From the IMG/VR virus record IMGVR_UViG_3300025128_000088, positions 1 to 44,767 of that record: a DNA stretch of 44,767 nt; one strand, given 5' to 3'. Below are positions 7,286 to 14,975 of this stretch, piece after piece; positions within the stretch are counted from its first letter, which is position 1, and each line of letters opens with the position of its first letter. The notes under the pieces are model-generated. The model was not told the DNA's origin. It saw only the letters and a list, made by a program, of their open reading frames with translations, and ran no database searches. This DNA is from a virus. A program made the translations under genes and the position numbers.

Positions 7286-7545
7286 GTTTCCACAATATTT
7301 TCTTGAACAATGCAATTATTTTCTTGCACTACAGATTCCTCAATTTCAACTTCATAGCTAGGATTAATAGACATTTCTTTTCCATTCTTAGTTTTAAACA
7401 AATATTTCGGCTTCACGCCTCCATTGCTATAACCTAAAAAGGTAAGTGATCTGTGTATGTTTCCGAGGTTTGTTGTAACATCGTAACATCGACCTCTTCT
7501 TGGCCATTCAGTATAGTTTTCATTCCTACTTGGGGTTGTGACCAT
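7276..7545 (-). CDS. small protein overlapping the PcfJ-like gene by 112 nt (89 aa)
   Basis: ATG at 7545 has AGAGGAGAATT directly upstream, so the start is well supported although it lies well inside the PcfJ-like gene in another frame. Residues about 15-65 (RRGRCYDVTTNLGNIHRSLT onward) read as a small globular domain, followed by an acidic Glu/Val/Asn tail. No family recognised. Last gene of the Ub-like operon; any role in that pathway is unknown. Confidence 0.65.
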   Translation of the reverse strand: MVTTPSRNENYTEWPRRGRCYDVTTNLGNIHRSLTFLGYSNGGVKPKYLFKTKNGKEMSINPSYEVEIEESVVQENNCIVQENIVETPI

Positions 7546-8841: not shown

Positions 8842-9051
8842 CTAGGAATTGCTTCCACCTTTTTTATCTCGTGCAACTACTGCAACCACAGCGTCTTGAG
8901 TTAAAGCAGTAGAATCAATAGCTACTTGAGAATTGACATTTACTGTCGCTGAACTCTCTAAGCCTAATTCGTCTTTTAACTCACCTACTGTTTCGGCAGA
9001 TGTTTGATAAATGTTGAAAGAATGTGTTCCATTCATTAAATGAATTTCCAT
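8842..9051 (-). CDS. ubiquitin-like beta-grasp protein with Gly-Gly near the C-terminus
   Basis: 69 aa. The order strand (MEIHLMN), strand (HSFNIYQ), helix (TVGELKDELG), strand (ATVNVNSQ), strand (AVVAVVARD) fits a minimal beta-grasp/ubiquitin-like fold. It ends in KKGG-SNS: Gly65-Gly66 plus a three-residue tail. As in ubiquitin and bacterial Ub-like precursors, removal of the tail would expose the diglycine for adenylation. The neighbouring JAMM protease and E1-like enzyme supply those activities. AAAGGAGG precedes the ATG by 10-11 nt. Fold assignment is by eye but the context makes it convincing. Confidence 0.8.
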   Translation of the reverse strand: MEIHLMNGTHSFNIYQTSAETVGELKDELGLESSATVNVNSQVAIDSTALTQDAVVAVVARDKKGGSNS

Positions 9052-9077
9052 TGGCGTTATGCCTCCTTTTATTGTGG

Positions 9078-9797
9078 TTAATTAACATCAATTGTTAAAC
9101 TTGGTATATGAAATACGAACTCTTTGTGAAAAGGCTGACTAGAAATAATCTTCCTTATCTGGCTCGCTATCATGGATCCTGCAAGCATTGAACAATAACT
9201 CGTTCCTTTACTTGTGCAGGGATCTGTACTCGCTTCATTGTCTGGGTACCATTTTTCTTTGTACTCTTCAATAGTTTTGCAAGTATATATTTGAAGTTGC
9301 TCTGCTCCCATACGGGCATCTATAACATATTCAAATCCATGATCAAAACAAGATTCAGCAATTTGTAATCTTGACAACATATTGTCAAATCCAAGGATTG
9401 CGAAATCTTTGTTCTTTTTGCTTGGTATTGGAAGTGGTGTTGATAAAGTAACCCATCGGTGAACCTTTTCAATATTGTAGTCAATATCTAAAGGCGTATC
9501 AATTAAATATAAATCAGTTATCATATCTCCTAAAGAATCAACTTTTTTATTTCCAACATGACGACCATCATACATTGATAATCCTAGATTTTCTTCCCCC
9601 ACTATATCACTATCATATAATGCGAAATGTCTTCCATTCATTTTAGCAATTGCAATAGCTGCGGAACTACCTATAGCACCGCAACCAAAGATGTGATAAT
9701 TATATTTATTAAAATCACTACATAATCCACTATATCGGGAAGCCATTATCGGTAGTGAGTTGTTTGTCGTAATTGACTGAGACGTATTCGTCTGCAT
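9078..9797 (-). CDS. E1-like (ThiF/MoeB superfamily) Ub-like-activating enzyme
   Basis: 239 aa. Nucleotide loop HIFGCGAIGSSAA (38-46), then ALYDSDIVGEENLGLSMYD (D62, D64, N70), K84/K85 and ILGFDNMLSRLQI (D138, R143): the ordered ATP/Mg and arginine motifs of E1 adenylation domains. C194 (STDPCTSKG) or C202 could be the thioester cysteine. It should adenylate the Gly-Gly end of the adjacent Ub-like protein. AGGAGG lies 8 nt before the ATG at 9797. The start overlaps the JAMM gene by 68 nt. About the minimal length for a ThiF-type enzyme, without a separate Cys domain as in eukaryotic E1. Confidence 0.85.
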   Translation of the reverse strand: MQTNTSQSITTNNSLPIMASRYSGLCSDFNKYNYHIFGCGAIGSSAAIAIAKMNGRHFALYDSDIVGEENLGLSMYDGRHVGNKKVDSLGDMITDLYLIDTPLDIDYNIEKVHRWVTLSTPLPIPSKKNKDFAILGFDNMLSRLQIAESCFDHGFEYVIDARMGAEQLQIYTCKTIEEYKEKWYPDNEASTDPCTSKGTSYCSMLAGSMIASQIRKIISSQPFHKEFVFHIPSLTIDVN

Positions 9798-10623
9798 TTA
9801 TCATTCCTCCTGTTAAGTCCATCCTATCATAAACATTTTTAGGTACTGTTGTGATTACAACATCCTCTTTAAACGCTTGTTTTGAAAGAAGAAGAACAGC
9901 TCTATTAAAGTCTAAATATTTTAAATTATTAGACCAATGTTCATTAGCTGTATCCTCAAGCATCTCTACATATTTATCCAGCAATGTTTCACTTTCATTG
10001 AACAAGGTCTCTTGTTGATGCCATCCCAGATTCGCATTCCAATGCATATCATAACCTTTATAGTCTTGTGACCACGACTTAGCATTTCCTTTATACTTAC
10101 TGCTGGTAAGAGTTAAAGCTCTTTTATCAACTAAACTGTCGAAGCTTTCCTTCATCTTTTTAGTTAAAACAGGCTTTTTACTTAAAATATTGAGGTCTAA
10201 ATCCTCAGATGCCTCAAATGGTTTCCAATATTTAATCGTAAGTTGGTATTCTTCTTTTAAATTCACAACAAGACTAATGGACCAATCTCCAGAAGAAAAC
10301 TCTTTCATGGCTTCTTCATCAGTTGAGCTCCAAAATGCACTCATTGTGTGGTGAGAATGCCACCATACAAACTTTATGTTATTAGGGCCGTGTTTAACAG
10401 CCATTTCAGAATAATATTTAGCAAGAGCGTCTTTGTCTAACCAGCAATTACCTGCTGTGACTTCTTGTTTTAATATTACAGGATCTTTAAGAAGCATGCC
10501 TTCTTTGGTCTCTACTAATAACAACATTCCAGCAATTTCGCTTTTATACTCTTCGTAAGCTAGTTTGGAGTAATTGATTATTTTATCCCAGTCTTTCTGA
10601 GATATATCAACTTGTTTCTGCAT
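9730..10623 (-). CDS. JAMM (MPN+) metalloprotease, deubiquitinase-like
   Basis: 297 aa. Residues 1-135 hold a complete JAMM zinc motif: E29 (KSEIAGMLL), then H89-S-H91, seven residues, S99, two residues, D102 (WWHSHHTMSAFWSSTDEEAM). This is the catalytic signature of Rpn11/AMSH/CBASS Cap3-type isopeptidases. The likely jobs are to trim the Ser-Asn-Ser tail of the Ub-like protein or reverse its conjugation. Residues about 140-297 form an unrecognised extension rich in Trp and Tyr. It overlaps the E2-like gene by 17 nt and the E1-like gene by 68 nt. Confidence 0.85.
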   Translation of the reverse strand: MQKQVDISQKDWDKIINYSKLAYEEYKSEIAGMLLLVETKEGMLLKDPVILKQEVTAGNCWLDKDALAKYYSEMAVKHGPNNIKFVWWHSHHTMSAFWSSTDEEAMKEFSSGDWSISLVVNLKEEYQLTIKYWKPFEASEDLDLNILSKKPVLTKKMKESFDSLVDKRALTLTSSKYKGNAKSWSQDYKGYDMHWNANLGWHQQETLFNESETLLDKYVEMLEDTANEHWSNNLKYLDFNRAVLLLSKQAFKEDVVITTVPKNVYDRMDLTGGMINADEYVSVNYDKQLTTDNGFPI

Positions 10624-12283
10624 GATACCATCCTTTTACTAATTCTTTAATTAATTCCTGCTTTCTACTCATATCAACTTCAGCTTCTTCCGTAACCTCT
10701 TCAACGTGTTCTTGGTTTGGAATAAAGTCAGATAATTGAATACCTGTGGCGTTGTGAAAATCGTTTACATTAACACAATCATCTTTAAATTTACATGAAA
10801 CACAATGATGCTCCATAAAACTAGAGACTTCTGCATTTACTACATCCTCTTCGTCGAAATCGCTATCAAGATAATCTTGTAAACTATTTCCCTCGTTTCC
10901 AGTAGCCCATAGAAATAAATGTCTACAAGTTTGCGTACTTATATCTGTTAAATCATTATACCACTCAGGAGCAGTTTCTTTAACTCCAAACAATACTCCT
11001 CTAGGATGACGTAATGGATTTGTATTCGTAGCAGAATACACACTTGTCCATTGTTCTAAGGAATACATCAATGTAATAAAGTTGTTGCGAGCATACTCTA
11101 TTCTAAGTGTAGAGGCATAATCTCCTGTACAATAACCACTATTACTGTGATTAAATTGACTGTTATTCAACATTGAGTCTGTAATATCCTCAGTAAGGCC
11201 ACCTAATTCATTCGAGCTTACATAAAACGTAGGATGATTTGGAGAGACAACTGTGCCTATTTTAACATTAGCCCCACTAGTATCATCTAAATGTTTAAAC
11301 ATTCTGTGAATATGCCAAACAGATTCTCCGTCAAAAGTTTTTATATCTGTTTCATAATCAGGATAATTATTTGTATCTCCCGAAGGATGCCTTATAATTG
11401 CTTTAGATTTAGAATCAATTACTTTTATAGCAAGTCCTATTCTTCTATTACGTTTCACGATTTGAGCGTCAGTGATATTAATAGTTTCAGGCATAACTCT
11501 ATTTGCATGAAGAATTGATTGAATAAAGCCTTCACATTTCTCTCTAAGTTCAGGATTATCAGGATTTATATCAGCAGTGTCAATAACCATTTCACGTCTA
11601 TATTTTAATGCATCTTGCAATATTGCAAAGAAATTTGCAGCTACATTTATTCTTTGATATTTTTGCAAATGGTAATTTGATCGTTCAAGACGATCTCCAT
11701 TATGATCAAACATTTGCCATCCACTGTCATTAAATCTGGATCTGTTCCCACTTTCTTCAAACGCTATATATTCAATAGCTCTCTCAATCCACCAGTCTTT
11801 AAAGTGCTCAAAATTTCGATTAAATATATCTGAATTGTAATTCATATTTTCAGAAAATACATTTTCGCGATAATTCCTGCTTCTATAAGTTTTAAATGAA
11901 TTAATTACAGTATTAGGAGTGCTATAAGCGTTTAAAAGCTGAATCTCATCATTTGTCATACCCCTTACATTCCATGAAGATGCAGAATAACTACTTCTAG
12001 ACATCGCTTCTAAACGATTTGCAACACGAGCTTTTTCTCCAGGACTAAGCCTGAAAGTTTGCGTTGTTTTTATCGGCAATACCTCTTCAAAATATTCACG
12101 ACCATGTGAATCTCTAGCGTTAGAAGATAATGGGTCTTTCCAGAGTAAAGCTTTATTCAATTCTGATTTTACTATTTCTATTATTGCATCGGCTCTTTCT
12201 ACATCAGAATAAGTATGTTCATGATAGTCCGATAGATCTTCAGGTATAGCGCGTGCTTGACCATTTTCAATAATTTTAAACAT
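10607..12283 (-). CDS. large protein with candidate E2-like conjugating domain
   Basis: 558 aa, first gene of the Ub-like operon, with AAAGGAACTGT before the ATG. Not recognised as a whole. Residues about 325-430 show features compatible with a prokaryotic E2-like fold: a strand ending SPNHPTFYV (H350-P351), then NSGYCTGDY with Cys385, a long helix (NNFITLMYSLEQWTSVYSA) and NPLRHP. This parallels the HP…G-x-C…helix…P order of E2 enzymes, Cys385 being the candidate catalytic residue. C494, C497, C503 with H492/H493 form a possible zinc knuckle. Residues 1-320 are helical and unassigned. The E2 call is inference from motif order and operon context. Confidence 0.5.
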   Translation of the reverse strand: MFKIIENGQARAIPEDLSDYHEHTYSDVERADAIIEIVKSELNKALLWKDPLSSNARDSHGREYFEEVLPIKTTQTFRLSPGEKARVANRLEAMSRSSYSASSWNVRGMTNDEIQLLNAYSTPNTVINSFKTYRSRNYRENVFSENMNYNSDIFNRNFEHFKDWWIERAIEYIAFEESGNRSRFNDSGWQMFDHNGDRLERSNYHLQKYQRINVAANFFAILQDALKYRREMVIDTADINPDNPELREKCEGFIQSILHANRVMPETINITDAQIVKRNRRIGLAIKVIDSKSKAIIRHPSGDTNNYPDYETDIKTFDGESVWHIHRMFKHLDDTSGANVKIGTVVSPNHPTFYVSSNELGGLTEDITDSMLNNSQFNHSNSGYCTGDYASTLRIEYARNNFITLMYSLEQWTSVYSATNTNPLRHPRGVLFGVKETAPEWYNDLTDISTQTCRHLFLWATGNEGNSLQDYLDSDFDEEDVVNAEVSSFMEHHCVSCKFKDDCVNVNDFHNATGIQLSDFIPNQEHVEEVTEEAEVDMSRKQELIKELVKGWYHAETS

Positions 12284-13413: not shown

Positions 13414-13453
13414 TATATTTGCGTCCTTTTATTTATTATTAAAAAATTTAAGT

Positions 13454-13526
13454 AGCGGACACAGGAGTCGAACCTGCTATCACAAGCTTATGAGGCTTGT
13501 ATGATTTTCCGTTTCACCCATCCGCT
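13454..13526 (-). tRNA. tRNA with CAU anticodon (Met or Ile2)
   Basis: Full cloverleaf of 73 nt. Acceptor AGCGGAT/GTCCGCT (one G-U), D stem GTGA/TCAT with GG in the loop, anticodon stem CAAGC/GCTTG around loop CTCATAA, T stem GCAGG/CCTGT with loop TTCGACT. Discriminator A; CCA is not encoded. CAU could be elongator Met, or Ile2 after lysidine modification; sequence by eye does not decide. It follows directly on the candidate large structured RNA. Confidence 0.9.
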
Positions 13527-13531
13527 GTAAT

Positions 13532-14400
13532 CAAAGCCTGAGACTAGAGCTTTGTACGAGAACCTTAAGAAGAGATTATTAATTCCTCTTCGTATCCACT
13601 ATTCTTTTAGGAACAGTAGTCCTCAATGCCAATGAGTTAGACTCATCACCCCTTACGTTCAAGTTATCTTTGCAACTACTAACACTATCAACCTCTATCG
13701 AGATCTAAACTGTCGCTAAACAGAATATTGCTTTTATTACAATTACACAGCCTTGTGAGCTATGCAACCCTGTCCATTTAAACAGGCAAGAGGCACCTAT
13801 GCTCTTGAACGTCCATGCTATTTTACTTATTCTTAGGGTAGTGTACTTTTAAACACTATAATTAAGTTAAGATTCAGGTAGATTCAAGACGTCGCACTGG
13901 ATGAAGCTCCGTACTTTCATACGAAATACTTCACGCCTTGATATGGCTTCTCCTGGTGAGAGAAATTGCATAGTATGCCTAACATTCCCTTCCATTACTG
14001 GAAGACAACCTTATGACTACTGAAACACGCGACAAACCACCACAGTCACCGCATAGTTCCTTGAAGTTCTCCTATCGGCTATTAACCTCAATGAGCATCC
14101 CACGCTCATCACTTCAACCTTCAGCATTTGCCATTAGGTCTTAGTGGTAACTTCATTGCATACTCAACTGCATTGCTACAGCGCTACATCAGCTTAATCC
14201 GATGTTGACTTTATACTCATTACTGAGTTTATCTTAAGGACTATATGCAGCCCTATATCTCACTCTGTATTTACACGGACTTGTGACCGTTATGCGATAC
14301 AATAAGAGCTCTTGACTCTTACCAACGCATAGTTACATTAAGATTAGCAAGGTCTCCTATGCCATAAATGCCCTTGCTATACATTAATGGTGTGGTTTGT
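13532..14400 (-). ncRNA. candidate giant structured RNA (GOLLD/ROOL-like)
   Basis: About 870 nt with no credible reading frame but a dense series of perfect stems. ACAAACCAC (14032-14040) pairs over long range with GTGGTTTGT (14392-14400) and closes a domain containing CATTAA/TTAATG, AGCAAG/CTTGCT, TATGCG/CGCATA around AAGAG/CTCTT, ACTCA/TGAGT, ACATC/GATGT, CCATTA/TAGTGG, and TTGAAGT/ACTTCAA around ATGAGC/GCTCAT. The other half has CAAAGC/GCTTTG, GAAGAG/CTCTTC, ATGAGT/ACTCAT, CCTGT/ACAGG and TAGTGT/ACACTA. Size, ornate structure, phage origin and an adjacent tRNA recall GOLLD and ROOL RNAs. Strand is assumed from the tRNA and neighbours. Confidence 0.6.
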
Positions 14401-14404
14401 TAAT

Positions 14405-14539
14405 TTAATTTGGCACATCCTTATCAATAAAAGGAGTGACGTCTCTAAAACCAGAATTATCTAGGTCATGTCTTCCCCATGAAGGTTCTTTTGTCTTGAT
14501 ACAAAATAAACCTATTAATAGAATTATAAATATTTCCAC
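14405..14539 (-). CDS. small membrane-anchored protein, GTG start (44 aa)
   Basis: GTG at 14537-14539 with AAGGAGTATTA upstream; TAA at 14405. An N-terminal hydrophobic segment (EIFIILLIGLFCI) is followed by a polar tail (KTKEPSWGRHDLDNS…). It probably sits in the inner membrane as a single-pass protein. It ends just before the candidate large RNA. No family recognised. Confidence 0.6.
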   Translation of the reverse strand: MEIFIILLIGLFCIKTKEPSWGRHDLDNSGFRDVTPFIDKDVPN

Positions 14540-14940: not shown

Positions 14941-14975
14941 AAAAAAAACCTCCAAGCACTAAACAAACTTGGAGG
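14941..14975 (-). terminator. Rho-independent terminator (leftward)
   Basis: CCTCCAAG (14949-14956) and CTTGGAGG (14968-14975) form a perfect 8-bp stem with an 11-nt loop. On the minus strand it is followed by eight U (14941-14948). It ends transcription from the small genes at 15030-15647. Confidence 0.85.

Follow-up and report, generated by a model that had tools for sequence, protein, structure and literature searches.

The closest described system is the giant RNA GOLLD, of which env-38 forms a hollow 14-mer RNA cage by cryo-EM and is located beside a Met-tRNA (PMC12286853); ROOL is another giant RNA that forms a cage (PMC12286853). The Rfam model of GOLLD (RF02032, 416 positions) represents the conserved 3′ domain of the RNA. 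How the ends of GOLLD are made was not addressed in the literature we searched. GOLLD and twister ribozymes appeared together nowhere in that search, which lay mostly outside subscription papers and theses, and GOLLD and boxA appeared together only in plant papers that were, by title, unrelated to phage RNA.

We analysed a phage record of 44,767 nt (IMG/VR record IMGVR_UViG_3300025128_000088, positions 1 to 44,767), referred to throughout as the window. It carries, on its minus strand, a GOLLD that shares with env-38 and RF02032 a complete 3′ domain, a less conserved 5′ domain, a variable linker and a tRNA-Met neighbour; unlike the RF02032 GOLLDs, it has a twister abutting its 5′ end and no boxA leader upstream. 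GOLLD and twister are each known, but a twister fitted onto the 5′ end was found in no other GOLLD examined. The likeness to ROOL is that of a giant phage RNA near tRNAs; the Rfam model of ROOL, which the initial annotation of this region had named beside GOLLD, gave no hit in the window at any of the thresholds applied. The features, from 5′ to 3′, are as follows:

14405 to 14539, minus strand: possible 44-aa ORF, uncertain, with a GTG start and GGAG upstream
14345 to 14404, minus strand: leader separating the twister from the possible small ORF, from folding
14257 to 14344, minus strand: predicted type-P1 twister ribozyme, from RF03160, our model R1 and the pseudoknots
13942 to 14253, minus strand: GOLLD 5′ domain, variable and less conserved, from nhmmer homology, the conserved hairpin and covariation
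13535 to 13941, minus strand: GOLLD conserved 3′ domain, from RF02032, including a variable linker at roughly 13885-13815
13452 to 13526, minus strand: tRNA-Met (CAT), from ARAGORN and RF00005

The structured RNA is GOLLD, a known class. RF02032 matched 13941-13535 on the minus strand over its complete length (model positions 1-416), scoring 183.3 bits where the gathering score is 150. The Rfam check proposed in the initial annotation therefore came out in favour of GOLLD, and a new RNA class, which that annotation had held possible, is ruled out by the same full-model match. The 5′ domain opens with a conserved hairpin (GGGCUGCAUAUAGUCC) at 14253, 3 nt past the twister, giving a total of about 719 nt (14253-13535), within the range of about 700-850 nt for the class. 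This first hairpin is conserved in 88 GOLLD loci, where the GUGGAUA motif lies some 735 nt downstream of it. When the minus strand of the window was searched with nhmmer, a close copy was found in L039/L040 (E = 1e-82) and weaker copies in L004, L005, L006 and L007. All matches to other GOLLDs begin at about 14267-14256 in the window; the homology of other GOLLDs thus starts just 3′ of the twister, and we rejected the twister as a part of the GOLLD domain. The RNA is non-coding, phage-borne (a terminase and a portal are present) and near a tRNA: the tRNA-Met starts 8 nt past the GOLLD 3′ end, in agreement with the earlier statement that a giant RNA adjoins a phage tRNA.

Covariation was examined in an alignment of three sequences, the window RNA and those of L231 and L229, whose phages have terminases 87% and 88% identical to that of the window phage. 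The alignment holds 202 consensus pairs, with 96.8% of cells paired. Double-sided changes were observed at 58 pairs, compared with 22.8 after shuffling and no more than 10 in slid controls. Drawn from three sequences, these counts do not represent independent events, and the alignment also supplied the structure itself, yet the excess is large. The covariation called for in the initial annotation is thereby present. A further search for relatives of this GOLLD subtype yielded no additional contigs. The roughly 500 nt upstream of GOLLD in L229 (L039 5830-6340, minus strand) are non-coding; they match no Rfam family and resemble no other locus.

The region 13532-14400, which had been described as a single RNA of those limits, is confirmed to be non-coding and structured beyond chance. 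It contains no substantial ORF (the longest are about 40 aa), as had been claimed, and its folding z-score relative to shuffled sequence is -4.6 for the minus strand and -2.4 for the plus. Eight perfect hairpins with stems of 6 bp or more and loops no longer than 12 nt were counted, where shuffling gave 2.0 (0/200); allowing loops of up to 40 nt raised the count to 11, against 6.8 in shuffles, which comes near the more than twelve perfect stems once reported. The limits themselves must be redrawn, with GOLLD at about 14253-13535, the twister at 14344-14257 and the leader at 14345-14400. The GOLLD-type RNA was thus correctly seen, while its strand (minus, by the covariance-model match) had not been stated and the 5′ ribozyme had been missed.

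A 9-bp pairing between 14032-14040 and 14392-14400 had been proposed to close a 370-nt domain. The complementarity is there, but it occurs at chance level: 2 pairs of complementary 9-mers were observed in the region against 1.7 expected, and a test of leader against GOLLD gave p = 0.19. Its 3′ arm lies within a conserved GOLLD hairpin (A2 helix 11 in the alignment of relatives), and its 5′ arm is upstream of the conserved RNA, outside the conserved part of the alignment. The second such pair, 13804-13812 with 13655-13663, corresponds to a genuine helix conserved in GOLLD (A2 columns 456-464/605-613). A divergent or new giant-RNA class closed by the 9-bp pairing would likewise be non-coding and strongly folded, as this region is, yet RF02032 matches in full above its gathering score, and the closing pairing occurs at chance level and is absent from the conserved structure; we consider such a class extremely improbable.

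The presence of a type-P1 twister with an intact catalytic core is strongly supported by sequence comparison and by pairing. P1 would be formed by 14344-14341 and 14260-14257, followed by P2, a long P3 arm and P4, with the conserved UAA at 14340-14338. From established knowledge of twisters, we take the cut to fall at U14340/A14339. The core residues are all present (UAA at the cut site, GUC.CAAG, GUAAA and GAG), and P1, P2, P4 and both pseudoknots, T1 and T2, are paired; all of these are shared with the RF03160 twisters. The window copy differs from them in heading a giant non-coding RNA, in its long P3 arm and in its RF03160 score of 54.9 bits (E = 1e-9 for the window), below the gathering score of 67.2. 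The shortfall is probably due in part to the pseudoknot positions, which a covariance model does not credit as pairs. Read by hand, both pseudoknots are compensated: T1 is AC/GU in the window and GC/GC in the RF03160 consensus, and T2 is CAC/GUG in the window and CCC/GGG in the consensus. A pattern that placed no constraint on the T1 and T2 positions retrieved 18 further phage twisters; T1 and T2 pair in 18 of 18, with the same compensated variants as in the window. An alignment of 16 phage twisters, made without the window copy, showed changes on both sides in 10 of 16 pairs and 56 double-sided cells against 16.2 in shuffles.

Model R1, built from those 16 twisters alone, with short P3 arms in its training set, scored 58.6 bits at the twister site and found no other match in the window. 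The stretch that it aligned as the cleavage strand, 14307-14296 (UCUUAUUGUAUC), is a near-copy located in the P3 arm. The cleavage strand according to Rfam is 14343-14332 (UCUUAAUGUAAC), the only one of the two to have UAA and to complete T1. The two strands have 10 of 12 bases the same and could compete.

A twister is not a general feature of GOLLD, being absent from about 100 other loci. RF03160 found none in sets of 13 and 50 GOLLD-bearing records, R1 found none at 100 other GOLLD loci, and no Rfam ribozyme was found upstream of the other GOLLD loci of the window's clade. Conversely, no GOLLD was found in the 18 other twister-bearing phage records, and a joint pattern of twister and GOLLD had no match elsewhere in the viral and bacterial genome collections scanned. 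A different element precedes most GOLLDs: in the upstream flanks of GOLLD loci L004-L225 from IMG/VR, a boxA-like motif, GTTCTTT[GA]A, stands no more than 300 nt upstream of the 5′ hairpin at 80 of 89 loci, the background rate being 0.028 per 300 nt. GOLLD transcription may therefore involve antitermination of the rRNA type. From TAnnTTTG promoter-like sequences, most IMG/VR GOLLD loci probably belong to Bacteroidota phages. The boxA-like motif is absent from the window and its clade. L227, a relative, has a tRNA-Met whose end lies 8 nt ahead of the GOLLD hairpin. Since a boxA leader, a tRNA (L227) and a twister (the window) are each found there, the site just 5′ of GOLLD tends to hold an element that could define or serve the start of the RNA.

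We propose, with a probability of about 0.7, that this is a GOLLD of a temperate T7-like phage whose ends are set by the twister and by RNase P at the tRNA-Met. A longer minus-strand transcript would carry the leader, the type-P1 twister, GOLLD and the tRNA-Met. Self-cleavage of the twister at U14340/A14339 would free the upstream mRNA or leader and would leave GOLLD with a defined 5′-OH end, the folded body of the ribozyme still attached. On the other side, the GOLLD 3′ end is predicted to be defined by RNase P through a cut at the 5′ end of the tRNA-Met, which would free both that end and the tRNA. The resulting RNA, about 800 nt long, would then fold and assemble into the GOLLD cage. GOLLD and the tRNA are established, whereas we infer self-cleavage, transcription of the parts as one RNA, release by RNase P and assembly of the cage. 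In favour of the proposal are the GOLLD match with its covariation, the twister match by two models with core and pseudoknots intact, the place of the twister 3 nt from the GOLLD start on the same strand, and that of the tRNA-Met 8 nt past GOLLD. Also in favour are the tRNA-Met of L227, a different processing signal at the same place, and the want of a boxA leader in the window's clade. Counting against the proposal are the sub-gathering RF03160 score, the alignment of the near-copy by R1 and the assumption of co-transcription with the upstream ORF. As this is a single twister-GOLLD case, covariation for the combination of the two cannot be demonstrated.

The possible 44-aa ORF ends 60 nt before the twister, and its position suggests a longer transcript. 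A scan for promoters and terminators found nothing above chance. A terminator-like 8-bp stem followed by eight T lies upstream of the GOLLD transcript, on the minus strand at 14941-14975 in the window; the scan missed it because its loop is 11 nt. The same ORF lends itself to another reading, in which the twister serves the upstream transcript, trimming or destabilising a neighbouring mRNA, and its adjacency to GOLLD is incidental. Other phage twisters are mostly close to protein-coding frames, and all 18 of their records lack GOLLD, as this would have it. In those phages, however, it is a likely gene that follows the twister, whereas here GOLLD follows after a gap of 3 nt; moreover, the upstream small ORFs, the 44-aa ORF included, had no homologue in the fetched loci. 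We regard this reading as unlikely.

The leader may bear on the activity of the ribozyme. In folding calculations, its CAUUAA can pair with UUAAUG of the cleavage strand, and the probability of P1/P2 in a nested fold falls from 0.88 without the leader to 0.02 with it. Such blocking of P1/P2 weighs against maturation by the twister, and would fit a twister fold that caps the GOLLD 5′ end structurally, or that serves as a leader-held switch with slow or conditional cleavage; competition by the near-copy at 14307-14296 for the role of cleavage strand could point the same way. The calculation ignores both pseudoknots, though, and in short contexts it yields an energy gap of no more than 0.1-1.9 kcal/mol; the catalytic core, moreover, shows full conservation. 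The pairing of leader and cleavage strand could be a switch or merely a limit of the method, and a cap or switch in place of a trimming ribozyme seems to us rather improbable. Processing by the twister and RNase P remains our preferred account.

A further point in its favour comes from the nearest phage, L034, which has 96% terminase identity and no GOLLD. In L034 the site corresponding to that of the twister, upstream of the same tRNA-Met, is taken by a pistol ribozyme, which scores 57.8 bits over a cut-off of 34.5. On its minus strand at 7856-7296 lie the pistol and then about 480 nt of non-coding sequence, and from the pistol to position 7296 folding gives z = -2.6; a small ORF and then the tRNA follow. 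The RNA of about 480 nt matched no Rfam family and nothing among the other fetched loci, and a search with a pistol pattern returned only the record of L034 itself. This single case suggests a swapped ribozyme-headed RNA. A tentative extension is that the lineage makes giant RNAs as ribozyme-headed cassettes, in which the ribozyme sets the 5′ end, ribozyme and RNA are swapped and the layout with a downstream tRNA-Met is kept; we hold this to be possible, though doubtful. If it is true, the L034 RNA is a new giant-RNA class.

Elsewhere in the window, a tRNA-Leu stands beside a phage integrase (18176-19256, plus strand), followed by the terminase and portal, a layout typical of temperate phages. 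The minus strand at 8842-12283 holds a possible phage ubiquitin-like conjugation cassette, with a 69-aa ORF, a ThiF/E1-like protein (PF00899, E = 8e-12), a Prok-JAB-like peptidase (a weak match, below the cut-off) and a 558-aa protein of no assigned kind. A search for the host in bacterial genomes by terminase gave no match.

The twister probably trims the giant RNA to length. A twister-headed GOLLD offers a maturation pathway that is directly testable, and would make self-trimming of GOLLD possible in test-tube production. The built-in ribozyme suggests that it is important for GOLLD to have a defined 5′ end, and a small self-cleaving ribozyme gains a concrete candidate job in a phage.
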